Under the pieces are notes generated by a model. It was not told the origin of the DNA, did no database searches, and saw nothing but the letters and a program-made list of their open reading frames with translations. Shown here piece by piece: positions 34,932 through 50,394 of a stretch of DNA of 64,000 nucleotides. The DNA is from Oscillospiraceae bacterium (GTDB lineage Bacteria > Bacillota > Clostridia > Oscillospirales > Ruminococcaceae). The stretch covers positions 47,146 through 111,145 of the forward strand of contig JAFTVU010000015.1 in the NCBI GenBank assembly GCA_017465665.1. The letters are read 5' to 3'. Position 1 is the stretch's first letter. The number at the start of each line of letters is the position of its first letter. A program made the translations under genes and the position numbers.

Positions 34932-36056
34932 TTATGCGAGGGGGTATTCTGTACTGTTGATAGAAAGTGCGGTTACTGTTGAGAGGTCGACGGCTGTTTC
35001 CGTCGGGTCGGTCATGGGTCTGTATTCAAGATCCATTACGAAAGTGACAGAGCTACCGTCACGCACCATATTATAACCACTAAGGAATACAGGAATATCC
35101 GTGCCGTCATTTCTGATGAGCTTTACATCATTATTGCACATGAACGTGCTTACAGTGTAATCCTCCCAGTTATAGCCCTCAACAAAGCTGAAGCTGCCGT
35201 GCAGCATTCCCTCGTTGGGTCGGATATCTATTGCCGTTATTATAGTTTCAAGTGGAATATCCCTGCCTGTGGGAAGCTCGGTCTCTGTTTCGGAAAAGGC
35301 ACTGATATTATAGAGTATCTCGCAGGGTGCGGAAACATCAGCCGCTGTGAGCTGTTCAAGGGACTTTTCGGATGGAACATAGGTGAACTCTATCTGAATA
35401 TCAAACCCATCACTGTCAGGTGTAAAACCGTAATCATCAAGGCTCATGCTGATACGTTTGCCCGACAATACATCCTCGGATGAAAAATCATCTCTCTGCA
35501 TACTTATCTTCATAGTATAAGCAACCGAGTCTGTTTCGGTGTATTCTCCAGAATAACCAAGCTGAAGCGGCTTCGGCTCCATGCCGTCGTTATTATATGT
35601 CAGCTTCACATCACGTATATCAGGCATACTGATATCATGCGAGCGGGCAAGCTCCCTCATAGAGCCGCCGTCCTTTCGGGATATCTCAACGCTTGCGATG
35701 ATACTGTTTGCATTGCCTGTAACGCCGTTCAGCGACACATTGTAATTATTATCAGAGCAGGTTATAACCACATCACGCGCGTCACCGATAAGCTCATAGC
35801 CGAGCTGCTCGTTTTCAGCTACTATCCTGTTGCCGAACAGGGTGTCAAAATCCAGCAGACCTGTGACTGCTGCCGCTGTAGCTCCGCAGGCGAGCACCGC
35901 TACGGCTGCACACGCAATTACTATCGGCTTTCTGATGTTTATGGTCTTCTTTTCACTTTTCATATTTTCCGCCTTTCTGAGCGCCGCTTCCAGCAGCTCC
36001 TTATCGCTCATGGAGGAGGTTATCTTATCAAATAATCTGTTATATTCTTTTCTCAA
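34932..36056 (-). CDS. DUF4179-type anti-sigma factor
   Basis: 374 residues from a TTG at 36056, preceded by GGAGG 7 bases upstream. The TTG overlaps the TGA of the sigma gene (TTGA), so translation is coupled. A cytosolic N terminus (1-45, basic and helical) is followed by one membrane helix (about 46-66: IVIACAAVAVLACGATAAAV) and a large extracytoplasmic domain beginning LLDFDTLFGNRIVAENEQ, as in DUF4179 proteins. It probably holds the ECF sigma factor until an envelope signal is sensed. Confidence 0.82.
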   Translation of the reverse strand: MRKEYNRLFDKITSSMSDKELLEAALRKAENMKSEKKTINIRKPIVIACAAVAVLACGATAAAVTGLLDFDTLFGNRIVAENEQLGYELIGDARDVVITCSDNNYNVSLNGVTGNANSIIASVEISRKDGGSMRELARSHDISMPDIRDVKLTYNNDGMEPKPLQLGYSGEYTETDSVAYTMKISMQRDDFSSEDVLSGKRISMSLDDYGFTPDSDGFDIQIEFTYVPSEKSLEQLTAADVSAPCEILYNISAFSETETELPTGRDIPLETIITAIDIRPNEGMLHGSFSFVEGYNWEDYTVSTFMCNNDVKLIRNDGTDIPVFLSGYNMVRDGSSVTFVMDLEYRPMTDPTETAVDLSTVTALSINSTEYPLA

Positions 36057-36523
36057 AACAAATCCTCCTTTGAGAGCAGCTTTCTCAGCTGGCCGCGGGC
36101 ACGGGTGAGCTTCGTTCTTACTGCGGCGGAGGTGGTGTTCCTCAGCCGGGCTATCTCGTTTACGGTATAGCGCTCATAGTAGAACAGGTATATGATGATA
36201 CTGTAATCTGCTTTCAGCTTCTTTACGCTGTCCAGCAGCAGCTCTTCCCTGCTGCTTTCAAACGGGATATCATCAGTTAGCTCCGCGCGGTGTCTGCGCC
36301 AGCCTGACTTCAACAGATCCTTTGAAAGATTTATCGTAACTCGTATCAGCCACGCCTTTACGTTTTCATCTCTTTCAAAGGATATTTCGGAGATGTACAG
36401 CTTCATGAACGCGTCCTGCGTAATATCATCAGCGTCCTCGCGGTTCTTCACGATACTGTACGCAAGCCTGAACACAGTACTGCGATACTGTATTATGTAA
36501 TGCTCAAGCTGCTGTTCTGTCAT
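36053..36523 (-). CDS. ECF-subfamily RNA polymerase sigma factor
   Basis: 156 residues from the ATG at 36523 (MTEQQLEHYIIQYRSTVFRL), with AAAGGAG 9 bases upstream; longer frames run into the promoter. Region 2 reads LAYSIVKNREDADDITQDAFMKL and region 4 YYERYTVNEIARLRNTTSAA with VRTKLTRAR. This is a sigma-70 ECF protein of the SigW/SigV type. An ECF-like promoter lies 44 bp upstream, so it probably drives its own operon with the anti-sigma gene. Confidence 0.93.
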   Translation of the reverse strand: MTEQQLEHYIIQYRSTVFRLAYSIVKNREDADDITQDAFMKLYISEISFERDENVKAWLIRVTINLSKDLLKSGWRRHRAELTDDIPFESSREELLLDSVKKLKADYSIIIYLFYYERYTVNEIARLRNTTSAAVRTKLTRARGQLRKLLSKEDLF

Positions 36524-36566
36524 GCCATTCATCTCCTTTACTCTTAAAAGCGCTTTCATTAGATAA

Positions 36567-36593
36567 GACGATCTGAAAAGTAAAAATGTTTCA
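36567..36593 (-). promoter_or_regulatory. ECF-type autoregulated promoter
   Basis: Minus strand TGAAAC (36593-36588), 17 bp, CGTC (36570-36567) followed by TTAT. This matches the GAAAC-N16/17-CGTC pattern of ECF promoters and no sigma-A boxes are evident. Confidence 0.65.
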
Positions 36594-36605
36594 CTGAAAA
36601 TTTTT

Positions 36606-36630
36606 GCGCCTCTCCGCAATGGAAAGGCGC
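36606..36630. terminator. Hairpin at the end of the biosynthetic operon
   Basis: GCGCCT/AGGCGC arms extended by TCC/GGA lie directly after the ligase stop at 36636. There is no immediate U-run on the minus strand (AAAAATTTT follows), so termination is plausible but not certain. Confidence 0.45.
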
Positions 36631-36635
36631 AGCTT

Positions 36636-38063
36636 TTATTTCATTCTTGCTTCGATATTATCGCGGATGACTTCATATCCGCGTATCTTTGCGTACTTGG
36701 GAAGCTTCTCATTAACTTCACCTACCATCTGCTCACCATCGCATTCGGCAGAGGCAAACAGCGCCGCATGAATAGCTCCGTCACGCTCATACACCTTGAC
36801 CTTGTTAAGCTGCGGATATCCTGCAAACAGCGCTTCAAGCTCATCGGGGTATACGTTCTCGCCGTTGGAGAGCAGTATCATCCTGCGCTTTCTGCCTTTA
36901 AGATAAAGCTTTCTGCCGTCAAGGAAGCCGAGGTCGCCTGTTCTGAACCAGCCGTCCTCAGACAGAGCAGCTGATGTTGCAGACGGATCATTATAATAGC
37001 CTGCAAAGACATTACCGCCGCGGACGAGTATCTCGCCAACGCTGTATTTATCGGGCTCTGCTATCATGATATCCATGTTTTCCAGCACTGTACCGACGGA
37101 ATCAAAATCATCAGGATTCGTGTACTCGCAGCTTATAAGCGAGGAGGTTTCGGTAAGTCCGTAGGCTTCCAGAAGATTAAGACCATTTTGCTTGAGGAAC
37201 TCACGAATCTCAGGGCGCAGATAAGCTCCGCCGCTGAACAGATAACGTATATTTCCACCGAGCGCCGCCGCAGGAGGAATACCCTTTTCCTTGCATACTT
37301 CATACAACCTTTCATATATCAGCGGCACAGAGCAGAAAACAGTGGGCTTCACCATCTGCAGCTCCTCCATGATGAGCCGCGTATCAGAGCAGATGTATAT
37401 GCTCATTCCCGATATGAGCGAATAGAGGAAATTGCAGATACCGCCGTATGTATGGCTAAGCGGCAGAAAGAGATAATCCTTATCTTCTGAGGTAAACGGA
37501 GAGCGCTTTTTCAGGCAATCCCAGTACGCAAACATATTATCCTGCGAGAGCATGACCGCCTTTGGCATACCTGTTGTTCCCGATGAAAAGATTATCTTGC
37601 AGCATATATCCGTTGGTAAGGGTTCAGGCTGTACATTATCTTCATTTATCAGCACCGAAAGCTCATCGAAGCGGATATACTGAATATTGGGGAAACGCTC
37701 CCGAAGTACGTTTATATTATCCTCTTTGAGGGGCGAATATATCACAGCGGCTGCTTCAAGCAGCTCCGCGGCATTGATTAGGTCACGCGGCTGCCACTCC
37801 TTGGAAAGCGTTGCAGATACTCCCACATAGCCCATTACCGCTATATCTGTTATCATGTAGTTGTAGCTGTTCTCTCCGTAAAGGATAATATTCTTACCTG
37901 CAAGACCGCGGACCAGCAGAGCCGCAGCAAGCGCCCGTACATCATCCGCAAATTGCGAAAAAGTACGTCCGCAGAAGCTGTCGCCATGGCGCTCAAAAAT
38001 GTATTCCTTATTGCCAAAACGCTGAACTCCGCTGTTCAGAAGCTCATGTACAGAGTAGCTCAT
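36636..38063 (-). CDS. AMP-binding (acyl-CoA synthetase-like) enzyme, operon gene 8
   Basis: 475 residues with the ANL motifs IIFSSGTTGMPKAVMLS, the aromatic site LPLSHTYGG, EAYGLTETSS and GWFRTGDLGFLDG, and hinge KGRKRRMILLSNGENVYPDE. It should adenylate a carboxylate, most like medium or long-chain fatty acyl ligases. The protein ends shortly after the start of the small C-terminal domain (NIEARMK), so the usual TGK catalytic loop is shortened. Its ATG overlaps the stop of the other ligase (ATGA). No carrier protein gene is nearby. The last gene of the eight-gene operon. Confidence 0.9.
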   Translation of the reverse strand: MSYSVHELLNSGVQRFGNKEYIFERHGDSFCGRTFSQFADDVRALAAALLVRGLAGKNIILYGENSYNYMITDIAVMGYVGVSATLSKEWQPRDLINAAELLEAAAVIYSPLKEDNINVLRERFPNIQYIRFDELSVLINEDNVQPEPLPTDICCKIIFSSGTTGMPKAVMLSQDNMFAYWDCLKKRSPFTSEDKDYLFLPLSHTYGGICNFLYSLISGMSIYICSDTRLIMEELQMVKPTVFCSVPLIYERLYEVCKEKGIPPAAALGGNIRYLFSGGAYLRPEIREFLKQNGLNLLEAYGLTETSSLISCEYTNPDDFDSVGTVLENMDIMIAEPDKYSVGEILVRGGNVFAGYYNDPSATSAALSEDGWFRTGDLGFLDGRKLYLKGRKRRMILLSNGENVYPDELEALFAGYPQLNKVKVYERDGAIHAALFASAECDGEQMVGEVNEKLPKYAKIRGYEVIRDNIEARMK

Positions 38064-39496
38064 TTTAGTTGCTCCTTTAGCTTATCGTAGTTTATCTTGG
38101 TGTGATGCTTGACATCACAGGGTATCTTTTTTATGATCTGCACCTCTGCGGTAATTCCCTGCTCCTGCAAAAAGGACTTTACGGCAGCGCAATCAACAGG
38201 TATGACGCCTCTTTGCAGCACCGCGTAGATCCCGCCGTTATGCTGTAATACAGCACATTTCGGTATATCGGGAAATGCGGCTATTATCTGCTGCTCAATG
38301 CAGTTGCTATAGATACGCTTGCCGCTGAGCTCGATGTATCTGCGGCTTTTCCCGTGGAAGTAAAGCACACCGTTTTCCTCAGCCGCGATATCATTGGTAT
38401 GATGCCACAGTGTACCCTCTATGTCCGTTTCCTTGGTGGATGGATCGCTGATGAGATAGCTTTCCAGCATTGCCGCGCTTGTTACAAGTATCTCTCCGTC
38501 ATCAGACAGTCTGACACGAACTCCGTTTACAGGTCTGCCGAGAATAGAGCGCTGCTCTGTTTCAAGCACAGATATAAAATCATCTATATCGGCAACAGCG
38601 ATTATGCTGCATTCCGTAGAGCCGTATATCAGCCTGCAGGCGCAATCGGGATATTTACTGCGTATATAACGTGCCTCGTAAAGATTCAGTATAGCGCCTC
38701 CGAAATAGAGTGTTTTCAGCTCAGGGAAAATGTTATCGGCTTTCATGCAGAAATCGGGCGAGGTTATTATCATGCTGACAGGCTCATCACAAAACAATCT
38801 AAGCAGCCTGTTAATCTTTTTCGCTGACCATCTGCCTAAATTAAGCTGCGGCATTACAGTTGTGTAGCCGTTGAGTATATTGGCGAAAATGTAGATATAG
38901 GATGTGGTAAGAACAGTCTGGTGTCCATCCGCATCGATATTGCTGTTGATAAGCTCAAACTGATGCATGAGATCGCGGTGGGTACGCAAAGCGATCTTAG
39001 GCTTTCCTGTTGAGCCTGTTGTCATTGTCAGCAGTGCGGTAACATCTTCTGATATATCTGATACGGCTGTATCGACCGCAGAAAAGTCTTCAGCCTTATC
39101 AATATTTATGATTCTTTTTACCTTGTTTATCTCTCTGAAAAAAACTCGGATATGCTTTGTCTTATCCGATACCAGCAGCATATCGGGCTTGTAATCCTCA
39201 AAGACACTATGCAGGCTTTCCTGCTTTGCCCAGATATCCACATACATTATGGACGCACCGATCTCAAGTGCGGCAAGCATGAATACACACAGCTTATACG
39301 AGGACGAAGCAAATGCAAGTATCCTGTCGCCCTGATTTACTCCGCAACTGACAAGATATGCACGCATACTGTGAACATCGCTGTGAAGCTCAGAGAAAGT
39401 GCGTCTGCATACACGATCGCCGCTGCGATATACAACAGCCGTTACATCACTGTTATCACAACAGACCTGCTCAAAACGCTCAACTATCCTGCTCAT
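38060..39496 (-). CDS. AMP-binding enzyme, OleC-like, operon gene 7
   Basis: 478 residues from the ATG at 39496, inside the end of the BtaA-like gene (17-bp overlap). The ANL P-loop is MTTGSTGKPKIALRTH; RLIYGSTECSIIAVADIDDF and a C-terminal DVKHHTKINYDKL follow. The fusion of these features is closest to the OleC group, known to make beta-lactones from beta-hydroxy acids, and related fatty acyl-AMP ligases. The C-terminal Lys (KINYDKL) is present, unlike in the partner ligase, so this copy may be the fully active one. Substrate unknown. Confidence 0.88.
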   Translation of the reverse strand: MSRIVERFEQVCCDNSDVTAVVYRSGDRVCRRTFSELHSDVHSMRAYLVSCGVNQGDRILAFASSSYKLCVFMLAALEIGASIMYVDIWAKQESLHSVFEDYKPDMLLVSDKTKHIRVFFREINKVKRIINIDKAEDFSAVDTAVSDISEDVTALLTMTTGSTGKPKIALRTHRDLMHQFELINSNIDADGHQTVLTTSYIYIFANILNGYTTVMPQLNLGRWSAKKINRLLRLFCDEPVSMIITSPDFCMKADNIFPELKTLYFGGAILNLYEARYIRSKYPDCACRLIYGSTECSIIAVADIDDFISVLETEQRSILGRPVNGVRVRLSDDGEILVTSAAMLESYLISDPSTKETDIEGTLWHHTNDIAAEENGVLYFHGKSRRYIELSGKRIYSNCIEQQIIAAFPDIPKCAVLQHNGGIYAVLQRGVIPVDCAAVKSFLQEQGITAEVQIIKKIPCDVKHHTKINYDKLKEQLK

Positions 39497-40565
39497 GCTT
39501 GTCCGCCTTTCTGTAAAGCCTGAAATCACGGTAGAACCAGGAGTTATTCTTTCTGAACAGACGCTCGGAAAGCTCTGTATCGCAGGTCAGAATATCGTCG
39601 GGATAACGTCTGTTCTGCATATTCCAGTAGGCTACTCTGCCATTCGCGGATAGCATTCTGCTAAGGAGCAGCTTGCTTTCAGAAAACTCCTCATCGCTCA
39701 TATACTCAAAGATATCGGATAGATTGGCGAAATCGATATTTTCCGTGGGGATGGCACTTAGATCACCATGTATGAGAGTTATCCTGTCAAGATTGCGGCG
39801 GATGATATCGTAATACTCACGGCGCAGATAAAGCGGCAGAGAGCGCGGAGCATATCCTCCGCAGACAATATAATTGATGTACGGATTATCAGCGTTTAGC
39901 GTGTTATAAACTCCGAACTCAAAGCGGCCGCGGATGTCGTTGCCGCTCTGCTCCTTTTCATCCACATGATCGTAAAAGCTGGAATCACGCCCGAGCCTGC
40001 CCATTACCTTGTAGCCGAAATAAATACTGAATATCGCTTTCATGCGGCGGTTGTTTATGCGTGTATCATAGAACCTTCGCTGCTCTTCCATATCATCCAT
40101 ACGGGCAAAGGTGCGGTAATCCTTTCGTGTGGATATAAGAGGAATAATGCGCTCTCTGAATATCCTGAAGAAATGCTCGAACTTGCCGCAGTGGATAACA
40201 CCGCCCGATATGATATCAGGGTTGCTGTCAAAATACATGAGCGCTTCCTCGGAAAGGTATGCGCGTACCTTGCTGTATAGCGGCAGACGCTCTCCCCTGC
40301 GTACTCCTAAAAGGGTCAGAGTTTCCTTGTAGCTGAGGCAACGGAAGCACGCCATCTTGAGCTCGCAGCAATGGAGCTGTGTGGGGTTTACATCAAAGGC
40401 ATATATCCTTTCGGGCTCGTTTATGAGCATGGCAAGCGTGTTGTCGCCTGCCGAGGCTATAGATATTCCCGTTTCACCGCGCCTGATATCCAGCGCTTCA
40501 AGCAGGATACGGGTATCCTCCCAGCAGTTTGAATAGCGTATAAAAGAGAAATCAGCCTTGCTCAT
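39480..40565 (-). CDS. BtaA-like (DUF3419) SAM 3-amino-3-carboxypropyl transferase, operon gene 6
   Basis: 361 residues with family blocks FIRYSNCWEDTRILLEAL, SIASAGDNTLAMLI, AFDVNPTQLHCCELK, GVIHCGKFEHFFRIFRE, GRDSSFYDHV, FANLSDIFEYMS and VAYWNMQNRR. BtaA proteins move the 3-amino-3-carboxypropyl group of SAM onto diacylglycerol, the first step of betaine lipids. No BtaB N-methyltransferase is present here, so a betaine lipid is not the obvious product; the acceptor may be another lipid or small molecule. It overlaps the dikinase gene by 14 bp and the next ligase by 17 bp. Confidence 0.88.
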   Translation of the reverse strand: MSKADFSFIRYSNCWEDTRILLEALDIRRGETGISIASAGDNTLAMLINEPERIYAFDVNPTQLHCCELKMACFRCLSYKETLTLLGVRRGERLPLYSKVRAYLSEEALMYFDSNPDIISGGVIHCGKFEHFFRIFRERIIPLISTRKDYRTFARMDDMEEQRRFYDTRINNRRMKAIFSIYFGYKVMGRLGRDSSFYDHVDEKEQSGNDIRGRFEFGVYNTLNADNPYINYIVCGGYAPRSLPLYLRREYYDIIRRNLDRITLIHGDLSAIPTENIDFANLSDIFEYMSDEEFSESKLLLSRMLSANGRVAYWNMQNRRYPDDILTCDTELSERLFRKNNSWFYRDFRLYRKADKHEQDS

Positions 40566-43089
40566 CAGTATCTCCTATTATCTCGACAGTGCCGTTTATA
40601 CCGTCTACGCGCACCCTCATTCCGTCCTTGACTATATTTGTGAGTCCGCGTATGCCTGCAACAAGGGTCATTCCCATCTCTCGTGCTACCACAGCCGAAT
40701 GCGACAGCACACTGCCTCGCTCGATAATTATTGCTTTCGCCATAGGGAAAAGCACTGTCCATCCCGGATCGGTGCGCTTTGCCATGAGGATATAGCCCTC
40801 TACATCCGCGCCTGTAGGATCTTCAACCAGCCTTACGATTCCCTCGATGACCTCACCGCCGCCTGCAACTCCGCGCAGAACACCATCAGCACAGGTCTCC
40901 TGACGGGAATAGATGGGCACCATATTTTCCTCGCTAACGTCACCGTAAAAGTACATACGCTCGTATATTGGACGGCTCTTGTTCTGCTCATACTCTGCAC
41001 GGCGTTGTGTTATCTTCTCGCGCAGAAGCTCGGTGCTGTCGCCGTAGCCCTTGACTATTGCGGATATCTCGGACTTTGTGAGGAAGAAGATATCGCGGAA
41101 ATGCGCGAGAACGCCGTCCTCTGCAAGATTTTTACCGATGCGGAGATAGATATTGCGTACAACGGAATATATGTATGTACGTCTCAGTCGCAGAGATTCT
41201 CTGTTGCGTATAAAGAACTTTGTTACATTTAAAAGCAACGCAATGAACGGTCTTTTGAATACGTTAAAGTTTGATAGCAGCGCCTTTTCAGCGTTGGCGT
41301 CAGCTGCACCGCCGTATTCGGGGAGCTGCTCACATTTGAGATAACCGCGGATTGTATCCAAAAGGAAAGAGCGATCCTCAAACAGCGTTACGGTCTCCAG
41401 CTTCAGCTCCTCCATAGTTCTTGCTCCGTAGCGGTAGATATATTCCTGTATCATGCGGAATACAGGCTCTTCTCCGCCAAGCCTTGCCGTTATCGTATCG
41501 TTATCCGAGGTAAAAAGAGCGGTCAGCTCGGGGCTTTGCTTTATCTCCTCCACGATGTTCAGCAGCATCGCGCTCTGCTCAGCGCTTTCCACATTTCCCT
41601 GCTTACTAATGCAGCTGCTGATAAGACCCTCATATCCATCAACATTCTTCTTTTTCAGCTGCTCTGTCAGCATACCGTAGAATATCATAGCGCCCATATC
41701 GTTTGCGATGGGTGTGATGAAATCGTCCAGTATCTCATGCTCAAGGGTGTCGTAGATACCCAGCACCTCAACGTTCGTCATTCCATCAAAGGTCTTGCCG
41801 TAATACGGACCTGTAACCTCATTGAAGCGCTTTATGAAGCGGGCGCTGTCCTTTTTCATGCGCATAAGCTTACGAATAAAGCTTACATAGATGCGTACAA
41901 GCCTTGTTTTTGCACCCAGCTCTGATTCATGGATGGTAGTCTTTACACCCATCATATTTTCCATGTACTGCTTATTCTTCTGATAGCCAGGATACAGCGC
42001 CGTCATCTTGTACCAGCTGTTAAGGCGGTAATATATCTTGTTCTCATAGAAGTTCAGCATATTATCAAGATCAGCACCGATAGACTCTATCGCGTCCTCG
42101 CTTACATAAAAGCTGCGGAGCGTCTGTCGGTATATCTTGGCATAGACCTCGCGCGCAAAGGTAAAGGTCAGCGGTGTGGTCACTCCCGAATAGCTTTCGA
42201 TTATGTTGGAATTATCCAGCACTGTGCGGAACTTATCCTTATCGATATGGGAATATGTGGTTATCAGACGGCACTGGAGGATTGATACCTCGCCATCCTT
42301 TATGCAGAACTCTATATCGCAGCCGCGGCGCGGAGAATAGCTTTTTTCTATGCGCTGAGCTTCCTTATAAAGCTTCAGCACCATCTCATCGGAAAGCTTT
42401 GCTGCGGCTTCATTACGGCTTATTATCTCATCTGTACACGCTACCACATAATCTGAGCTGTCAGATTCGCCCGAAACAAGGCTCTCGCCTAAGCCCTCAA
42501 CAACGCTTATAAGCATTTCATCTGGGTCGTTCGTGCGAGGATCGGTGGTGAAGATAACGCCTGAATAGTCCGCCTCGACCATACGCTGCACAATGACCGC
42601 TACACTGATATCAGGCGTGATAAGCCCGTTGTTTGCGCGGTACTCCATTATACGTTCCGAGAAACAGGAAAGATAGCATTTCTTGACCGCTTCAAGGATA
42701 TCGTCGATACCCCTGACATTCAGATAGCTCTCCATCATGCCTGCAAAGGAATACTTTTCTCCATCCTCATCAGTGGCGCTGGAACGGACAGAAACAGCGC
42801 TGTCGCTACCGAGGGCGCTCAGCATTTCCGAAACGGCAGCGCGTGTTGCTTCGGTAAAATCACAGCCTGATATAATCTCAATAACTGCGCTGCGGCTGTT
42901 TTCGTCATACTCGGAAAGCAGAGAGCGGTATTCAGTTATGCTATCGCCAAGAAATTCATTGAATATATCTGCGGACAGCACAAAGAGATCGGGCACGTTT
43001 GCCCCGATATCACAGAGATGTACAAGGTTATATGCCTTGCCGCCAAGCTTATCGGCGGTGACAGGAGAATCAACAGGTAAACAGTTCAT
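40552..43089 (-). CDS. PEP-synthase/rifampin-phosphotransferase-like dikinase, operon gene 5
   Basis: 845 residues. The N-terminal ATP-grasp domain (about 1-290) has LGGKAYNLVHL, VSVRSSATDEDGEKYSFAGM and DIEFCIKDGEVSILQCR. A helical middle domain (about 300-720) follows, then the swivelling His domain with ERGSVLSHSAVVAREMG (His797). The PEP-binding barrel of true PEP synthase is absent. This layout is that of rifampin phosphotransferase, which uses ATP to phosphorylate a small molecule through a phospho-His, giving AMP and Pi. Here it probably phosphorylates a pathway intermediate. It overlaps both neighbours (ATGA upstream). Confidence 0.9.
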   Translation of the reverse strand: MNCLPVDSPVTADKLGGKAYNLVHLCDIGANVPDLFVLSADIFNEFLGDSITEYRSLLSEYDENSRSAVIEIISGCDFTEATRAAVSEMLSALGSDSAVSVRSSATDEDGEKYSFAGMMESYLNVRGIDDILEAVKKCYLSCFSERIMEYRANNGLITPDISVAVIVQRMVEADYSGVIFTTDPRTNDPDEMLISVVEGLGESLVSGESDSSDYVVACTDEIISRNEAAAKLSDEMVLKLYKEAQRIEKSYSPRRGCDIEFCIKDGEVSILQCRLITTYSHIDKDKFRTVLDNSNIIESYSGVTTPLTFTFAREVYAKIYRQTLRSFYVSEDAIESIGADLDNMLNFYENKIYYRLNSWYKMTALYPGYQKNKQYMENMMGVKTTIHESELGAKTRLVRIYVSFIRKLMRMKKDSARFIKRFNEVTGPYYGKTFDGMTNVEVLGIYDTLEHEILDDFITPIANDMGAMIFYGMLTEQLKKKNVDGYEGLISSCISKQGNVESAEQSAMLLNIVEEIKQSPELTALFTSDNDTITARLGGEEPVFRMIQEYIYRYGARTMEELKLETVTLFEDRSFLLDTIRGYLKCEQLPEYGGAADANAEKALLSNFNVFKRPFIALLLNVTKFFIRNRESLRLRRTYIYSVVRNIYLRIGKNLAEDGVLAHFRDIFFLTKSEISAIVKGYGDSTELLREKITQRRAEYEQNKSRPIYERMYFYGDVSEENMVPIYSRQETCADGVLRGVAGGGEVIEGIVRLVEDPTGADVEGYILMAKRTDPGWTVLFPMAKAIIIERGSVLSHSAVVAREMGMTLVAGIRGLTNIVKDGMRVRVDGINGTVEIIGDTDEQG

Positions 43090-43595
43090 TTTCTGACCTT
43101 TCTTTTATACAGCTTATAAAAATGGAACAAAGCAGATACAGCAACACAGCCAACACACACGGCAATATGCATTGCACCCACGCGCTCACAATTAAGACGG
43201 AAATAATACAGAAAAAGCAACGCCATAAATAACATTTTAAGAACGGGCAGCTTTTCCATAAGGATGATATAAGCGATCGCCGCTAAACTGAACGCTCCCC
43301 AAAAACCAAAGAACACAACGTTCAGTACAACATATACGGCTGACATCACACAAGCAAGAATGATGAGTTCTTTTTTACTGAGATACTGCGTTTTACGGGT
43401 GCTGTCCTTTTCATAATCAAAGATATCATCGAATGCACGGATAGTTATGAGCAGGCACAGTACTATGGGGAGCATCGGGAAAAAGGATGATATAAATTCA
43501 TCCGAAAGCAGCGCAAGCACCGCCGCTATCACAGCCGCCGCTAATAAATACAGCGGAAGCATGGCTTTGTTCATAAGATATCGTATCAGCTTCAT
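43086..43595 (-). CDS. Short UbiA-like membrane protein, operon gene 4
   Basis: 169 residues with about five hydrophobic spans. The first loop carries TIRAFDDIFDYEKDSTRKTQ, which resembles the first Asp-rich motif of UbiA prenyltransferases (N/D-DxxD). The second Asp motif and the C-terminal half of the usual 280-300 residue protein are missing, so it may be a half-size enzyme or a derived membrane partner. It overlaps the genes on both sides by 4 bp (ATGA). It suggests that a lipid or prenyl substrate is handled at the membrane. Confidence 0.65.
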   Translation of the reverse strand: MKLIRYLMNKAMLPLYLLAAAVIAAVLALLSDEFISSFFPMLPIVLCLLITIRAFDDIFDYEKDSTRKTQYLSKKELIILACVMSAVYVVLNVVFFGFWGAFSLAAIAYIILMEKLPVLKMLFMALLFLYYFRLNCERVGAMHIAVCVGCVAVSALFHFYKLYKRKVRK

Positions 43596-44653
43596 TTTTT
43601 CGGTAGCAATTTATATATGTTGGCTTTCAGAAGCACAGGGCCGAGATTTATTCCGACAGTATCACTGAGCAAATTAAGCTCATCATAAGGCTTATCGTAG
43701 TAATGCTCTTTATTGACGAGCGCAATACCCTCCTCACGGGATATCCTGCCGCTGCGTACCAGCACGCTCACCTCAGGGAGACAGTGCGGTCTGCCCTCTG
43801 CACACTCGTAGATATAATGCGCGGCATTGTGTATACGGCAATCATAATGATCGTACTGCACATCGGGCGTCCATGAGGTATTCTCACGCAGGTAGCTTAC
43901 AATATGCTGCTCGTCATAATCATGATAGAGGAAATAGGACATGAATTCACGGAAATCTCCGCCATCAAGGCAATCGCACAGCATTCCCTTTACATCTGCA
44001 AGTAGCTCCTTATCCATACGATCCTCAATGGAGGAAAGAAGCTCGGTGTACAGCGCGTTCAGATCGACCTCATGTATGCTTTTCAGTCCTGCGTTGATAA
44101 GCGGCGTGAACACATCATCACCGTAGTACCTGAGCATCTGCTGAGGGCTTCTGCCATGTATGCACAAACCTGCGTTTATTTTGGTCGTATAGTTTATCAT
44201 AGCCGCATAACCGATATATGAGCAGGCAACGCATGGAGCAAGCCAATGCTGCATGGAATATCTGTAAAAGCGGTTGAGCAGGTCTTTATCAAACTCGATA
44301 TATTCATGCTCAACACCGAACTCCTGCACCAGCTTATCCACATTCTTACGTGCGGCATCGCTGAAAAAGCCGTTGAGCATGGTAAAGGTCTTTACTTTAA
44401 GCCCGTAACGCTTCACAAGCTCATGCAGGACAAAAACGCTGTCCTTGCCGCCCGAGATACCGAGCGCTACATCATAATCATACTTACCGCGGATATTCTC
44501 TATACGCTCAAAGAAAAGCTGCTCAAGCCTTTCTCTGTCACTGAGCTTGCCGCTGATGCTGTCATAGCTTCTGCAATAGCCGCAGACCCCGTTCTCATCA
44601 TAGTTCATGCGCCTTACGGTGCTGTCGTTCAGGCAGCGTGTACATTTTTTCAT
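43592..44653 (-). CDS. PP-loop N-acetyl-sugar amidotransferase-like enzyme, operon gene 3
   Basis: 353 residues from the ATG at 44653 with GGAGCT upstream. An N-terminal zinc finger (MKKCTRCLNDST and GVCGYCRSYD) and the PP-loop GISGGKDSVFVLHEL match the WbpG/PseA/LegG family, which adenylates a carboxylate or amide for amidation, usually with ammonia from HisH/HisF-like partners. A middle stretch LAPCVACSYIGYAA and INAGLCIHGRSPQQML are also typical. No glutaminase partner is encoded here. It starts 1 bp after the GNAT stop and overlaps the UbiA-like gene. Confidence 0.85.
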   Translation of the reverse strand: MKKCTRCLNDSTVRRMNYDENGVCGYCRSYDSISGKLSDRERLEQLFFERIENIRGKYDYDVALGISGGKDSVFVLHELVKRYGLKVKTFTMLNGFFSDAARKNVDKLVQEFGVEHEYIEFDKDLLNRFYRYSMQHWLAPCVACSYIGYAAMINYTTKINAGLCIHGRSPQQMLRYYGDDVFTPLINAGLKSIHEVDLNALYTELLSSIEDRMDKELLADVKGMLCDCLDGGDFREFMSYFLYHDYDEQHIVSYLRENTSWTPDVQYDHYDCRIHNAAHYIYECAEGRPHCLPEVSVLVRSGRISREEGIALVNKEHYYDKPYDELNLLSDTVGINLGPVLLKANIYKLLPKK

Positions 44654-44654
44654 A

Positions 44655-45533
44655 TTACAGCTCCTTAACAAATACGGCATAGCGCTTTTCGTTGGATTCT
44701 ATATCATCCTCAAAGCGCCTGAAGATATCTTTCTGCTCACACTGGAAATGGTACATCATGGTCTTGTAGCCTTTGTCAAGGACATATTTGCAGCCAAGAT
44801 AAAGCAAAGCCGTATACACCTTATGCTTGCGGTACGAGGGCAGCACGGCGCTGGTCTTGGAAACAAAGCAATCTCCGTAGGGACTGTCATATCCCATAAC
44901 GTAGCCGACAGGTCTTCCCTTATGGTATGCGACATACATGATAAGCTCCAGACCCTTTGTCCAGCTAAGATACAGCTTATTGAAGTATTCACGGGGAATG
45001 TCACAGTAAAGATAGCTGCCGCGGAATGCTTCGCAGGAGATATCAAAGATATCGTCTGCGAGAGCATACGCTTCCCCGCCCTTAAACAGCTTGAATGTAA
45101 AGCCCTCGCTCAGCTTCTGCCGATACAGCGGCTCGCCCGCGAGATACATCGGATTGTTGATATCGATCTCAGCGCTGCGGTAGGTGTAAAGCTCACGATA
45201 ACCGAGCTGCTTTATGTAGTCAACATAATAGGGCGGATTAGTGCAATCGGGAAACAGCTTCATATCGTAGCGGCTGATAGCCCAGCGATAGCTCATCCAT
45301 GAGCAGTAATTAACAGGGCCTACAAGCTCGGTATATCCAAGCTCTTTTGCTCGCTGCTCCATTGCAGAGAACATCGTGCGGACATCATCCATATTCTCTG
45401 TAAGCTCAGCAAAGCCGAAAAGGCACTGGTGATCTGCCATTTTCTTGTTTATTATCAGATAGGCCGTGCAGCCGTTTACTGAAAACCTCTCAGAGTAGTC
45501 GGCAAGGGACAGTATCTCAAGTTCTTTTTCCAT
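44655..45533 (-). CDS. GNAT-family acyltransferase-like protein, operon gene 2
   Basis: 292 residues with two GNAT-like halves. The first includes ELVGPVNYCSWMSYRWAI and LFPDCTNPPYYVDYIKQLGY; the second YVAYHKGRPVGYVMGYDSPY and AVLPSYRKHKVYTALLYLGC, the likely acyl-CoA site. Related two-domain GNATs appear in lipid and natural-product clusters; the acyl donor and acceptor are unknown. It starts 13 bp after the kinase stop. Confidence 0.78.
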   Translation of the reverse strand: MEKELEILSLADYSERFSVNGCTAYLIINKKMADHQCLFGFAELTENMDDVRTMFSAMEQRAKELGYTELVGPVNYCSWMSYRWAISRYDMKLFPDCTNPPYYVDYIKQLGYRELYTYRSAEIDINNPMYLAGEPLYRQKLSEGFTFKLFKGGEAYALADDIFDISCEAFRGSYLYCDIPREYFNKLYLSWTKGLELIMYVAYHKGRPVGYVMGYDSPYGDCFVSKTSAVLPSYRKHKVYTALLYLGCKYVLDKGYKTMMYHFQCEQKDIFRRFEDDIESNEKRYAVFVKEL

Positions 45534-45546
45534 ATCATTCTCTTTT

Positions 45547-46605
45547 CTATGTAATATTCAGAATATCCATCATGCGCGCGGCATTGATCGCAAGCTGCTC
45601 GGTATAATCAAGACCCAGATGTTTTCCTGCAAGTCTCAGCATACACAGCTTATTTATACAAAGCTCAAGCGTATTGAAGCGGAGTATCGTGCAGTACTGC
45701 TCATCTGTGAGCTGTACGCCTGTTTTTTCTGCAAGCACCTCACGATGGTGATGAAGCGCAGAAAGCGCCTGTTCATCGCTCAGCTCATGGAGCATGGAGA
45801 TAAGCAGCTCTATAATATCATGCTCGGGATTCTGATATGCCGCAAGCTCCCAGTCATATATACGGATATCCCCATCGTATGCACTGATATTACGCGGCGA
45901 AAGATCGTTATGAGTTAAAGTGCGGTGGAAGCTCACCTCCGCGTAGCGGATGTGAAGCTCACCGATAAAGCGTTCAATAACAGCAAGCTTATCTTCACCA
46001 AAAATCTCTGTATCCTCATCATGCAATCTTTGGAGCATTCGCCTGAAACGGGAGCGGATACGTTTATAATCACGCGGACTGTAATTATTCAGCTTCATCT
46101 GCTCTGCGGCTGATACATCGCCGTAATAACGGGCATGAAACTCTGTGATGATATCAATTACCTCTGTGAGCTTATCAGAACGCGGTGCAGCGGACGGAAG
46201 CTCCTCCATTGCCAGAAAGCTTTCCTTAGTAAAGCTATCGGTATATGCGCCGATAAAAACAGGAACATGAGCCGAAAGCTCAGGCGCAAGAGCTCTGTAT
46301 ATATACACCTCCCTTACGGAGCTGTCGTTATAGCCCAGTGCCTTATGCTCAAGCACCAGCAGCAGAAACGCTATTATATCTCCGCCGCTGAGAAGCCTTA
46401 TTCCGTTTGCGATTATAGCCATAGTCTTGCTCTTGCCGACAAACGAGCGCACAGCACCGTCTGCAGATATGATACGGTATCTCATTACACCTGCGCGCGG
46501 GGAGGCTATTCTATTGGAAACGCCGCTGTCAAAGGCGAGCGGCTCACGCTCGACCGAAACGGGCTTTTGCCCGAATACCCTTTGAATTGCACGGGTAACA
46601 TTCAT
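45547..46605 (-). CDS. APH/choline-kinase-like phosphotransferase, operon gene 1
   Basis: 352 residues from the ATG at 46605 with AGAGGA upstream; the longer frame would start within the -10 box. The catalytic loop is LTHNDLSPRNISAY and the metal site RIYDWELAAYQNPEHDI, as in aminoglycoside phosphotransferase and choline/ethanolamine kinases. A FVGKSK-like lysine and LAMEELPS hinge are upstream. It uses ATP to phosphorylate a hydroxyl on a small molecule or head group. It opens the eight-gene operon behind a good promoter. Confidence 0.87.
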   Translation of the reverse strand: MNVTRAIQRVFGQKPVSVEREPLAFDSGVSNRIASPRAGVMRYRIISADGAVRSFVGKSKTMAIIANGIRLLSGGDIIAFLLLVLEHKALGYNDSSVREVYIYRALAPELSAHVPVFIGAYTDSFTKESFLAMEELPSAAPRSDKLTEVIDIITEFHARYYGDVSAAEQMKLNNYSPRDYKRIRSRFRRMLQRLHDEDTEIFGEDKLAVIERFIGELHIRYAEVSFHRTLTHNDLSPRNISAYDGDIRIYDWELAAYQNPEHDIIELLISMLHELSDEQALSALHHHREVLAEKTGVQLTDEQYCTILRFNTLELCINKLCMLRLAGKHLGLDYTEQLAINAARMMDILNIT

Positions 46606-46647
46606 ATCTTCTGCATCCTCTGTCTTATTGATTTTATATACTATTTT

Positions 46648-46676
46648 ATTATACACTATAACTCTGCAAAAGTAAA
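46648..46676 (-). promoter_or_regulatory. Promoter of the eight-gene biosynthetic operon
   Basis: Minus strand TTTACT (46676-46671), 17-bp spacer, TATAAT (46653-46648), 43 bp before the first ATG. Confidence 0.75.
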
Positions 46677-46797: not shown

Positions 46798-48669
46798 TTA
46801 CCAATCCAGCTCATCAAGAGTAATTACATACTCGCTGGTGTATACCTTTTTCAGCATATCCTTTTCCGTGTAGCGCTCGCTGTAGGCTGAGCCGTTCACC
46901 ACGAATTCGCCGCACCATGTATTGAACCATGCCCACATGGTGTTGCCCTGCACAGCCTGCTCTATATCAAACAGGCAGCCGTTCTCTGTAAGGGCTACTA
47001 TCTTGTTCTCGCCGCTGTATTCCGAGGCTTCGGTGAACTTCGCTGTCTGAGGAGAATACACGCGCTCTCCGGGGTATATATCCTCGCCAATGATATCCAC
47101 ATACTCGTCACCCGGATACCAGTCCGCAGCCTGTCCGTTATATACCCAGATGAGATTATTGCACTCATACTTATAGGTAAGCTGTTCATACATATATACC
47201 CACAGCTTCTTATAAGCGTCTGCGCCCTTTGCGCCCCACCAGAACCAGCCGCCCGAGCCCTCGTGAAGAGGTCTCCACAGAACGGGCACGCCTGCATCTT
47301 CAAGGCGGTTGAGCTGCTTTGCTATCTCCTCTATGTCACGGTCTATTGCTGCCTTGCCTGCCGTATCCTGACCGTTCATCACCTTTGCGATATCAAAATT
47401 CGTGTTGCGGGTGTAGAATGCACCCCACCAGCGCGGATTGCCGTTTTCATCATTGCCGCTCTTCATGTACTCGGTAGGAGCGTTCCAGTGCCAGCAGAAT
47501 GTCACGATACCGCCCATTTTGCTGAACTCTATCGCACGATCAACAGCATCGGAGCCTGCTCCCAGCGCAACTCTTGACGGAGTATAATCCATCATATCAA
47601 GACCGAGCATAGCGGGATACTCACCTGTTACATCGTGGATGGCTGTAAATTCCCTGCCGTAGATACCGTCATCGCATACCTGACCCGAAATAACGTACTT
47701 GCCGTAGCTGTCGCGAATATATTCATAGAGATCAACGGTGCGCGGAGATGCGTTTTCATTGGCAAGACCTGCAGTGACTTCATACAGCTCATCATCTATG
47801 CCCTCGGCTGTGGATACCTGGATATAATCGAGCTGCATCCAGCCCCAGGATTTTGTTATTCTGATGCTGTGTCTGCCTGCTGTCATGCTGACGCTGGGTA
47901 CAACGTATTCTGTGAATACTCCGTTCTGGCTCTGGAATACGCCGATACCGCCGCCGTCAAGCAGGATGTTGTTTTCCTTATACGAGCCGATACCTGCCGA
48001 GCAGAATGTAAGATCATACATTCCGTTTGCGGGGATATCAACAGTAAATTCGATCACGTCACGATCGCTCTCGAACTTCTCAACCATTTTTCCGCCCGAG
48101 CACGCACCGTTATCCGAAATGCTCAGACCGCCGCCGAGCTTTGCTGCCTCCGCTTCATAGCGCATAGAGAAGCTCTCTGCCTCTTCAGGCTCAGGTCTTG
48201 CCTGTGCAGCGGTAGTCGTGGCAGAAGAGGTAGTTGCAGTGGTGGTAGTTGTAGCTTTTGCGGAGGTGGTTGTAGTAGTTTTTATGGTCGTGGTTGCCGT
48301 GGTGGCTTTTGTGGTTGCCGTAGTCGTAGCAGCAGTAGTGGTCACTGTAGGCTGTGTTGCGGTGGTAGCTGCTACGGTAGTCGCAGATGTGGTGTCAGTG
48401 GTCTCGGGAAGCTCCTGCGGCGCAGCGGTAGTCGCAGCGGTGGTGGTAGCTTCGGGCGCTGACTCAGACGTATCTGCGGCACTGGCAGATGTTGCGGCAG
48501 TGCTCGCAGAGGTGGTCAGTTCCGATGGAGCGGCAGTTGTGCTCACCGCTGTGGAAGAGGACGAAGACGAAGCAGCTCCTGCATCGGATGAAATATGTTC
48601 ATCTGCAGCACAGCCTGTCGCTGCAAGCATAGCTGATACGATCAATAAGGAAAGCAGTCTTTTTTTCAT
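46798..48669 (-). CDS. GH26 beta-mannanase lipoprotein with CBM35-like domain
   Basis: 623 residues. A signal peptide ends at lipobox LAATGC (Cys20), so the protein is tethered to the outer membrane face. A Ser/Thr/Ala-rich linker (about 30-158) leads to a CBM35-like beta-sandwich (about 168-287: MRYEAEAAKLGGGLSI to WGWMQLDYIQV) and a GH26 barrel (about 305-623). The acid/base is Glu470 in WRPLHEGSGGWFWWG and the nucleophile Glu562 in VALTENGC. It cleaves beta-1,4-mannan at the cell surface. A sigma-A promoter lies about 42 bp upstream, and a related GH26 gene lies 126 bp upstream. Confidence 0.95.
   Translation of the reverse strand: MKKRLLSLLIVSAMLAATGCAADEHISSDAGAASSSSSSTAVSTTAAPSELTTSASTAATSASAADTSESAPEATTTAATTAAPQELPETTDTTSATTVAATTATQPTVTTTAATTTATTKATTATTTIKTTTTTSAKATTTTTATTSSATTTAAQARPEPEEAESFSMRYEAEAAKLGGGLSISDNGACSGGKMVEKFESDRDVIEFTVDIPANGMYDLTFCSAGIGSYKENNILLDGGGIGVFQSQNGVFTEYVVPSVSMTAGRHSIRITKSWGWMQLDYIQVSTAEGIDDELYEVTAGLANENASPRTVDLYEYIRDSYGKYVISGQVCDDGIYGREFTAIHDVTGEYPAMLGLDMMDYTPSRVALGAGSDAVDRAIEFSKMGGIVTFCWHWNAPTEYMKSGNDENGNPRWWGAFYTRNTNFDIAKVMNGQDTAGKAAIDRDIEEIAKQLNRLEDAGVPVLWRPLHEGSGGWFWWGAKGADAYKKLWVYMYEQLTYKYECNNLIWVYNGQAADWYPGDEYVDIIGEDIYPGERVYSPQTAKFTEASEYSGENKIVALTENGCLFDIEQAVQGNTMWAWFNTWCGEFVVNGSAYSERYTEKDMLKKVYTSEYVITLDELDW
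48196..48582 (-). repeat. Thr/Ala codon-repeat linker in the GH26 gene
   Basis: Low-complexity ACN and GCN codons encode about 130 residues of mostly Thr, Ala and Ser. It is a flexible and probably O-glycosylated wall-spanning linker, prone to slippage. Confidence 0.85.
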
Positions 48670-48710
48670 AATATACCTCCTGTCAGTTAACAGACAAGCT
48701 GCTTTATACG

Positions 48711-48740
48711 ATTATACACTATAGTCGCTATATTAGTCAA
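48711..48740 (-). promoter_or_regulatory. Promoter of the first GH26 lipoprotein gene
   Basis: Minus strand TTGACT (48740-48735), 18-bp spacer, TATAAT (48716-48711). Confidence 0.7.
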
Positions 48741-48795
48741 CTACTTTTTGCAGCAAAGCGGCAAGGTCTTCCCTCGCCGCTTATGCCCGCAATTA

Positions 48796-50394
48796 TTACA
48801 TATTATTGAAATCGGGAAGCTCATCCCTTGTGATTATCACGTCGCTGTTGTATACCTTTTCCATCATGTCGAATGCAGTGTACGCATCGGAAAGCTCAGG
48901 AGTACCGTTCTTCACGATATAATCCCAGTTCCATACGGCAAACCACAGCCAGTAAGCGTTATCTCTGACGATAAGCTCGGGATCGGGCATGGTGGCGCAC
49001 TCGCTCATAGTTACCAGCTTTCCGCTTTCAGTCCATGTGCTCATATCTGCAAGGACATTAGGGCTTGTTCCGTAATCATAAGCTGCATTATAGATATCGA
49101 TGGCTGCAATGTCGGAGTATTCATCACCCGGATACCACTCTGCGCTCTGTGCATTCCATACCCAGATAAGGTTATCAAGCTCATGGTAATCTGTCATTCT
49201 GTGGTACATCAGCTTCCACAGCCACTTGTAAGCGTCCGCGCCCGAAGCGCCCCACCAGAACCAGCCGCCGCTTGCCTCATGCAGGGGTCTCCACATCACG
49301 GTAACGCCTGCGTCCTCCATGCGCTGCATGAGCGCGGAGATGTTGTCGATATCCTTGATGAGCTTGTAGGTCTCTATCGTTATCTTATCCTCTATGTACA
49401 GCGCTTCAAGCTCCTCTGCTGTTGCCATGGACACGTCGATATCAGTAACAGCGTCGGTCAGCACAAAGGATGTATCCTTAGCATAGAACGCGCAGCCGTT
49501 GCAGGGCGCATACCAGTGCCAGTCATATACGACAAGACCGCCATCATTGCTCCACTGGATAGCAAGCTCCACATCCTTTGCGGGAGGATCGCCATGACAG
49601 TAGCTCATGGAATCATAGATGAAATCAAAGGTGCGTACAGCAGGATACTTGTCAAGCCCCAGGAAAAGCGCATCGGTCTCAGTGTTGTTGCCGTAATCTG
49701 TGCACTGACCTGCCAGTGTTCTCTTGCCGTAAACGGCTTTCAGGTACTGATAGATATTCTGCGTCTTGAGGTTTGCATAAGGATTGCACAGGGTATCATC
49801 AATGCCCTCGTAGATATCATCGCTGAGCGGCTCGCCATCCTCGATGAGTATGCTGTCAAGGGAGAACCAGCTCCAGCCTGCGCCGAGAGTCACGCTGTTC
49901 TCGCCCTTTTCAAGGAAGATGCCGTCCACTGTAGTTTCTACCCAGTCGCCGTTTTCGGAATAGATATCCATTGCTTTCAGACCGTTGAACAGCAGCGGGT
50001 TTTCTTTGTGGCTGCCTGCGCAGTGGCGTACAGTTATCTTATAATACTGGCTTGCGGGGATATCAACAGAAAGCGCAAATGCGGTGTTATCCGAGATATC
50101 CACATAGCCCTCGCCCGAATAGCCTGCCTTATCTGTCTTTATATCAACACCTGCCGCTGTTTGTGCTGTTTCGGCCTCAACGAGGGTGCTGAAATCCATC
50201 TTTTCGATGCCGCCATGCGTAAGCTTATCAAACGTGTAGCTGCTGGCGTAGGTTATCTGTGACGGATCTACCATTGCTCTGCCCGCAACGACTTCGGGAA
50301 GTTGTTCCTCCTGCGATACTTCATCTGCGCCGCAGCCTGTGCAGAGTATTGCAAATGCCGATATAACGGACAGAAGCCTTTTACAAATTCTCAT
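48796..50394 (-). CDS. GH26 beta-mannanase-like lipoprotein
   Basis: 532 residues. A signal peptide ends in a slightly atypical lipobox (ILCTGC, Cys21). A carbohydrate-binding beta domain (about 68-187: VEAETAQTAAGVDI to WSWFSLDSILIEDG) precedes a GH26 barrel (about 205-525), with acid/base Glu373 in WRPLHEASGGWFWWG and nucleophile Glu465 in TMSECAT. Unlike its neighbour it has no Thr-rich linker, so it sits closer to the membrane. An extra loop (about 310-345) near the active site may alter specificity. It is divergent from an AraC regulator that probably controls both mannanases. Confidence 0.93.
   Translation of the reverse strand: MRICKRLLSVISAFAILCTGCGADEVSQEEQLPEVVAGRAMVDPSQITYASSYTFDKLTHGGIEKMDFSTLVEAETAQTAAGVDIKTDKAGYSGEGYVDISDNTAFALSVDIPASQYYKITVRHCAGSHKENPLLFNGLKAMDIYSENGDWVETTVDGIFLEKGENSVTLGAGWSWFSLDSILIEDGEPLSDDIYEGIDDTLCNPYANLKTQNIYQYLKAVYGKRTLAGQCTDYGNNTETDALFLGLDKYPAVRTFDFIYDSMSYCHGDPPAKDVELAIQWSNDGGLVVYDWHWYAPCNGCAFYAKDTSFVLTDAVTDIDVSMATAEELEALYIEDKITIETYKLIKDIDNISALMQRMEDAGVTVMWRPLHEASGGWFWWGASGADAYKWLWKLMYHRMTDYHELDNLIWVWNAQSAEWYPGDEYSDIAAIDIYNAAYDYGTSPNVLADMSTWTESGKLVTMSECATMPDPELIVRDNAYWLWFAVWNWDYIVKNGTPELSDAYTAFDMMEKVYNSDVIITRDELPDFNNM

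Follow-up and report, generated by a model that had tools for sequence, protein, structure and literature searches.

An eight-gene operon with a DUF3419 protein and a dikinase lacking the PEP barrel: a possible route to a lipid-type amino compound

What might be made by a gene set in which a relative of the betaine-lipid enzyme BtaA is encoded beside a dikinase, an N-acyltransferase-type enzyme and two ANL ligases? This question is raised by a stretch of 64,000 nucleotides from an Oscillospiraceae bacterium (assembly GCA_017465665.1, contig JAFTVU010000015.1, positions 47,146 to 111,145; referred to here as the window), in which eight adjoining open reading frames (ORFs) of the minus strand span 36636-46605 after correction of their starts (Table 1). 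These eight genes form one operon and represent the Bacillota/Saccharibacteria branch of a module that occurs in many phyla, and it is quite possible, if still short of probable, that they make a lipid-type amino compound.

The arrangement of the genes is that of an operon. In the raw ORF listing, the stretch 36636-46656 holds eight ORFs on the minus strand, whose starts were corrected by alignment to a relative (locus L005; loci are numbered in this way throughout) together with start-codon and ribosome-binding-like stretches in the sequence, which places the ATG codons of the APH, PP-loop and ANLa genes at 46605, 44653 and 39496, respectively. Going from gene 1 to gene 8, the first two joints are then gaps (13 bp and 1 bp) and the other five are overlaps (4, 4, 14, 17 and 4 bp), and the mostly 4-17 bp overlaps described in the initial annotation are therefore correct. 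The families that it had assigned to all eight products are likewise recovered in Pfam, NCBIfam and PDB sequence searches. The GC content of the operon (46-49%) is similar to that of its flanks.

Are these genes kept together elsewhere? A scan of 84,980 species genomes with the window's DUF3419 protein gave at least 539 confirmed relatives, and gene neighbourhoods were counted in the best 80 of the 539 confirmed loci, picked by DUF3419 similarity alone and scored with hidden Markov models (HMMs) built from the proteins of the window and of L010, which were not cross-checked row by row against an outside library. These loci are of two types, type A (L011-L031, 21 loci) and type B (L032-L090, 59 loci). 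The window's eight genes are found in identical order in 14 of the 21 type A loci, and the other seven have either two to four of the genes (L015, L018, L020 and L021, of which L015 and L020 are short contigs) or seven (L019, L023 and L025). All five core parts (DUF3419, dikinase, UbiA, GNAT and ANL) are present together in 56 of the 80 loci, the dikinase is present in 74, and UbiA-dikinase and dikinase-DUF3419 adjacency is seen in 65 and 61 loci, respectively. The wider module thus delineated comprises UbiA, dikinase, DUF3419, a membrane protein called H, GNAT, ANL and often a gene resembling 3-hydroxy-3-methylglutaryl (HMG)-CoA reductase (HMGR). Among the 59 type B loci, the dikinase is found in 53, UbiA in 53, H in 49, GNAT in 47, ANLa in 46, the HMGR-like gene in 30 and the PP-loop gene in none; the six without a dikinase match are L032, L037, L049, L081, L083 and L086, some of them at contig ends. 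An orthologue of ANLa, detected with a profile HMM built from it, occurs in both types, and ANLb is confined to type A. The flanks are not recurrent, as among 993 neighbouring ORFs the clusters present in at least five loci are the HMGR gene (plus overlapping-frame shadows) and an ABC ATPase (7 loci).

The module rows bear about 25 phylum-level labels, single ones of which may be binning errors, because most rows are metagenome-assembled genomes; cultured carriers include Natronospirillum operosum G-116 (L065), Microcoleus sp. FACHB-1515 (L055) and Catonella morbi ATCC 51271 (L024). Type A genes are also seen in four loci labelled Saccharibacteria (L018, L019, L021 and L023), the set of L018 being reduced to APH-GNAT-dikinase-DUF3419. 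The initial annotation had proposed to look for joint conservation in other Firmicutes: the genes are indeed conserved together, but confinement to Firmicutes is not borne out. Around the source genome the gene is rare. Relatives of the DUF3419 protein are found in one of the 43 genomes of the genus (the source genome itself), full length in three of the 197 genomes of the family (source included; a fourth match is weak, with 30% identity over 66 residues), and in three of the 398 genomes of the phylum (source included; E <= 1e-20 with alignment). This rare and patchy occurrence suggests horizontal spread. One scan of viral contigs with the window's DUF3419 protein gave no match.

Is the DUF3419 protein then simply a BtaA? 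In two plasmid loci (L097 and L098) a methyltransferase gene comes next after a DUF3419 gene, and these pairs are taken here for btaA-btaB. With their DUF3419 proteins the window protein has an identity of 24.1% and 26.8%, and it has in common with them an N-terminal Y-x-x-x-WED-like stretch, a SAM-loop-like stretch (SAM, S-adenosylmethionine) and an acidic residue after this loop. In a tree made by a quick method (85 rows, only two of them reference BtaA rows), all 23 type A rows fall in one clade with a support of 100 (starred), the rows of both btaA-btaB-like pairs and two from a further DUF3419 cluster fall outside the module rows (fork support 91), and type A is nested within type B by forks of 83-91, which are not starred. 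With one BtaB-type query, phmmer finds no BtaB relative at E <= 1e-3 among the 4413 ORFs of 83 loci. Judged by kinship and context, the window protein is not an ordinary BtaA. The other DUF3419 cluster, on Rhizobium and Shinella plasmids (L095:837-6155 and L096:843-6155; the L096 genes were read by eye), has as partners a ketoacyl-acyl carrier protein synthase III, an epimerase-type enzyme, an MBL hydrolase and a 'CoF synthetase'.

The dikinase matches PPDK_N (4e-60) and the mobile domain of phosphoenolpyruvate (PEP) utilizers (1e-19) in Pfam, and no PEP-barrel family is matched at E <= 0.01, in line with the dikinase without a PEP barrel of the initial annotation; with the PEP/pyruvate TIM barrel absent at this threshold, a PEP synthase identity is ruled out. 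Its motifs are intact (GGK at 16, VRSS at 101, DIE at 258, Q.R near 270, and LSHSAV at 795-800 with His797), and those of the ATP-grasp and His-swivel domains are conserved across the relatives. The top NCBIfam score is with a PEP-synthase-named model (648 bits, under the cut-off of 883), followed by scores with RedH (undecylprodigiosin ligase, 274 bits), rifamycin phosphotransferase (269 bits, cut-off 999) and PigC (261 bits), these three all far under their cut-offs. The PDB neighbours are 5fbs and 5hv1, deposited as phosphoenolpyruvate synthase, which we take to be rifampin phosphotransferases. The available text of PMC4844700 describes for rifampin phosphotransferase a three-domain layout and the conversion of ATP and rifampin into phospho-rifampin, AMP and Pi. 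By its domain order the window dikinase is closest in build to such rifampin phosphotransferase-like enzymes; the earlier PEP-synthase-like label had the dikinase family right and had missed this build.

The link with ceramides comes from the GNAT. A type B GNAT query has matches in nine plasmid records, and the neighbourhoods of four of the non-module ones were inspected. In Streptomyces NBC_01001 (L100) and Rubrobacter (L102), a GNAT related to those of the module (1.2e-39 and 3.8e-34 with the type B HMM, and 5e-9 with the type A HMM for L102) is flanked by a pyridoxal phosphate (PLP) enzyme and an NAD-epimerase-type protein, and the top NCBIfam model of both PLP enzymes is serine palmitoyltransferase (Spt; 377 and 444 bits, both below the cut-off of 640). 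The neighbourhood in Nonomuraea (L103) carries no annotation. The bacterial ceramide synthase CerS is presumably also a GNAT. In Caulobacter, (phospho)ceramide synthesis comprises Spt, the N-acyltransferase CerS, the reductase CerR, an acyl-ACP synthetase and a ceramide kinase, according to the available text of PMC11324152 and PMC11087976. The sequence comparisons thus relate the module's GNAT to ceramide-synthase-type N-acyltransferases, a kinship that had been missed when the gene was named, correctly, a GNAT. An Spt gene is found neither among the window's eight genes nor among the recurrent neighbours.

What pathway would accommodate these parts? We tentatively propose, with rather less than full conviction and as something we could not yet call probable, that an alcohol receives an aminocarboxypropyl group from SAM and that the amine is then N-acylated, giving a two-tailed, ceramide-like or N-acyl-homoserine-ether (phospho)aminolipid. 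The dikinase would move a phosphate of ATP via its histidine onto the hydroxyl of a small alcohol or lipid, and UbiA, which is full length in type B and half length in the window, would handle or anchor a prenyl-bearing or membrane-bound acceptor. The DUF3419 protein would transfer the aminocarboxypropyl group from SAM to the alcohol. ANLa would activate a fatty acid, and the GNAT would attach the acyl chain to the amine so introduced, in the manner of the bacterial ceramide synthase acting on its amino base. The leftover carboxyl group would then be altered in different ways: many type B loci would use the HMGR-like reductase, which would turn a thioester into an alcohol, together with a kinase (either H or an APH domain fused to HMGR), and in the window the alteration would fall to ANLb, the APH kinase and the PP-loop enzyme. 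Phosphorylation would be by the dikinase and by APH or H. The ANLb proteins end early, with a lysine as exactly the final residue in 17 of 19 type A rows, and this lysine is perhaps the catalytic one. The lipid suggested at the outset, with its C4 unit from SAM and its activated acyl chain, would be the best fit, if the product is a lipid at all.

The membrane proteins and the reductase bear on the later steps. The window's UbiA-like protein has no Pfam or NCBIfam match, and the alignment of the type A UbiA-like profile with full-length type B UbiA by hhalign gives 96.3% and E 1.5e-9. The type B proteins are full length, with a first motif R..DE.KD...D......RP.PRG and an E/R/K second motif; the window copy, of 169 residues, is neither full length nor in possession of the second Asp-rich motif. 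H is a membrane protein with conserved RK..H, D and KSxEGS, motifs which we take to resemble those of CTP-dependent polyprenol or phytol kinases. The HMGR-like proteins have matches among the solved structures of HMG-CoA reductase, and all 24 rows compared (L043:5140-6405 and 23 further) keep E559, K691, D767 and H866, with Glu at the S684 position and no Lys at the K735 position (presumably human HMG-CoA reductase numbering). As two HMG-binding residues are altered and the catalytic ones are kept, the HMGR-like proteins of type B probably use a different substrate. APH and H are never found together in the 80 loci (APH only in 17, H only in 49), as if they replaced each other as the kinase. 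In L037 (4612-7362) an HMGR domain is fused to an APH kinase domain in a protein of 916 residues, beside UbiA, DUF3419 and GNAT; a PilZ domain at the N-terminus of this fusion, first read by eye, is unsupported by Pfam at E <= 0.001.

Several observations weigh against the proposed aminolipid pathway. The predicted structure of the DUF3419 protein (predicted local distance difference test score, pLDDT, 94.3) has no PDB match at E <= 0.001 in a fold search, and the closest folds are methyltransferase-like (E 1.1e-3 and above, TM-scores up to 0.43); because of this, the acceptor and the transfer of an aminocarboxypropyl rather than a methyl group rest on the 24-27% kinship with BtaA. The tandem GNAT predicted with a pLDDT of 95.8 has as its best folds aminoacyl-tRNA-dependent peptide synthases, the clavulanate tandem GNAT and MprF-type domains, with mycothiol synthase lower, and is as near to peptide synthases and MprF as to acetyltransferases, so that aminoacyl transfer is possible; in Sphingomonas (L101), one of the three annotated records, no Spt-like trio is found beside the GNAT. 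The half-length UbiA, missing the second motif, may not be a prenyltransferase. H is placed by neither Pfam nor NCBIfam, its putative kinase character being read from the motifs, and the mutual exclusion of APH and H follows clade, apart from L037. Finally, HMGR is present in 11 of the 29 genomes tested and in none of the three type A genomes, and the reduction step is not general, since it is missing from 18 of the 29 and from type A.

It is also conceivable, though rather unlikely, that the module makes a diffusible secondary metabolite such as a metallophore, signal or antibiotic, which is exported, with the dikinase joining or phosphorylating small units as do PigC/RedH or rifampin phosphotransferase. 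This would agree with the RedH, rifamycin phosphotransferase and PigC scores, far under the cut-offs as they are, and with the patchy spread in genus and phylum. Aminocarboxypropyl groups are known in metallophores and other natural products, and the small-molecule aminocarboxypropyl transferases named in the available text of a 2023 review of SAM chemistry (PMC10491745) include NAS, CntL, MccD, NAT, BtaA and discadenine synthase. A diffusible product is, however, less readily reconciled with the two or three membrane proteins or membrane-type enzymes of each module, with the acyl-activating ligase and the ceramide-synthase-type GNAT, and with the finding that, except for the ABC ATPase, no exporter family is recurrent in at least five loci.

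Modification of a surface polymer (teichoic acid or lipoglycan), in which the APH, PP-loop and UbiA-like proteins would act on a lipid-linked sugar, is improbable: the PP-loop enzyme is closest to N-acetyl sugar amidotransferases, and a glycosyltransferase was seen by eye within the type A cluster of L025, but glycosyltransferases are not recurrent in the module and type B has no PP-loop gene. The ordinary betaine lipid (diacylglyceryl trimethylhomoserine, DGTS) pathway would be the simplest reading of the Pfam assignment, DUF3419 being the BtaA family; it is rejected as very improbable, given the distant sequence, the separate tree branch and the lack of BtaB in the 83 loci. That the eight genes are a chance run is scarcely credible, for despite the single occurrence of the DUF3419 gene in the genus, such a run is refuted by the conservation of the order in type A and of the core in both types.

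Searches of an open-licence literature collection gave no paper that, judged by its title and the start of its abstract, describes the gene set, subscription journals and preprints lying outside the search, and the available text of the SAM-chemistry review holds no comparable module (PMC10491745); the term 'undescribed' applies within these limits. A pathway conserved across many phyla, including in cultured strains, appears to be without an assigned product. The broadest form of the proposal, which we consider doubtful, is that the lipids made by the module in about 25 phyla are a class of their own in bacterial membranes or signalling, sphingolipid look-alikes with the amino-bearing carbon chain from SAM and not from serine. 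In many of these phyla a repurposed HMG-CoA reductase would reduce an amino-acyl thioester in place of HMG-CoA, and a variant with PP-loop and ANL enzymes would operate in the gut and oral Bacillota and Saccharibacteria. If a SAM-derived ceramide-like lipid is indeed made, there would be a second biosynthetic origin for sphingolipid-like membranes, the role of DUF3419 would extend from betaine lipids to a second function, and an acylated compound that has so far been overlooked would be present in host-associated bacteria.

Table 1. Genes of the operon and the promoter-like match (window positions)
Feature	Position	Strand	Basis
Gene 1: APH-type small-molecule kinase, 352 aa	45547..46605	-	Pfam APH PF01636 4e-8; longer ORF starts GTG 46656
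Gene 2: tandem-GNAT N-acyltransferase-type enzyme, 292 aa	44655..45533	-	GNAT PF00583 7e-7
Gene 3: PP-loop enzyme, N-acetyl-sugar amidotransferase-like, 353 aa	43592..44653	-	CxxC pairs, SGGKDS motif
Gene 4: half-length UbiA-like membrane protein, 169 aa	43086..43595	-	first Asp motif only (R53, D56, D57, D60, D64)
Gene 5: dikinase-type phosphotransferase, 845 aa	40552..43089	-	ATP-grasp, middle domain, swivelling His domain, no PEP barrel
Gene 6: DUF3419 (BtaA-related) aminocarboxypropyl-transferase-like enzyme, 361 aa	39480..40565	-	PF11899 5e-62
Gene 7: ANL ligase a (ANLa)	38060..39496	-	AMP-binding 1e-31; conserved P-x-D-x-K/R-H-x-x-K end
Gene 8: ANL ligase b (ANLb), type A only	36636..38063	-	AMP-binding 2e-56; shortened C-terminus, last residue Lys
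Promoter-like match upstream of gene 1 (unproved)	46648-46676	-	pattern TTTACT-17-TATAAT

The APH protein is 48% and 43% identical to the copies of L005 and L006, respectively. The single promoter of the initial annotation is not upheld, as the region has 22 promoter-like matches vs a shuffled mean of 22.1, and the match upstream of the operon is a pattern only, not above chance. A terminator-like hairpin of 13 pairs (46754-46726) lies between the operon and its upstream gene. Further upstream, at 46798-50394, is a tandem pair of GH26 plus CBM35 proteins, lipoprotein-like by eye. On the other side, 16 bp past the operon end and on the same strand, an extracytoplasmic function (ECF)-type sigma factor is encoded together with a DUF4179 protein that is likely to be its anti-sigma factor (34932-36619), an arrangement not conserved in the relatives. 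The sigma factor (36053-36619) was rejected as a conserved regulator, being related only to genes of L011 and L032, which are there on the other strand.

When compared with known systems, the individual enzymes resemble several families. The PP-loop enzyme shares with WbuX-type amidotransferases the SGGKDS motif, the CxxC pairs and a score of 139 bits with TIGR03573 (PDB 8wex, 6.7e-9), but this score is under the cut-off of 203 and the operon is without a glutaminase-type partner. The first Asp-rich motif is shared with digeranylgeranylglyceryl phosphate synthase and the UbiA family, to which the kinship is weak (PDB 6m31, E 0.0016), the likeness in length being limited to type B. With rifampin phosphotransferase and PigC/RedH, the dikinase has in common the ATP-grasp domain, a middle domain, the His swivel and the missing PEP barrel, and differs from them in its NCBIfam scores, its genetic context and the nature of the middle domain. 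The BtaA/BtaB betaine-lipid pathway has the same Pfam family, SAM-site stretch and proposed 3-amino-3-carboxypropyl transfer to a hydroxyl, but the window module is distant from it in sequence, has five other conserved enzymes and has an N-acyltransferase where BtaA/BtaB has an N-methyltransferase. The bacterial ceramide pathway (Spt, bCerS, CerR, AasR and the ceramide kinase CC_1160) shares with the module a related GNAT-type N-acyltransferase, an acyl-activating ANL enzyme and a kinase; the difference is that, in place of serine palmitoyltransferase, the DUF3419 protein is proposed to supply the amino carbon from SAM.

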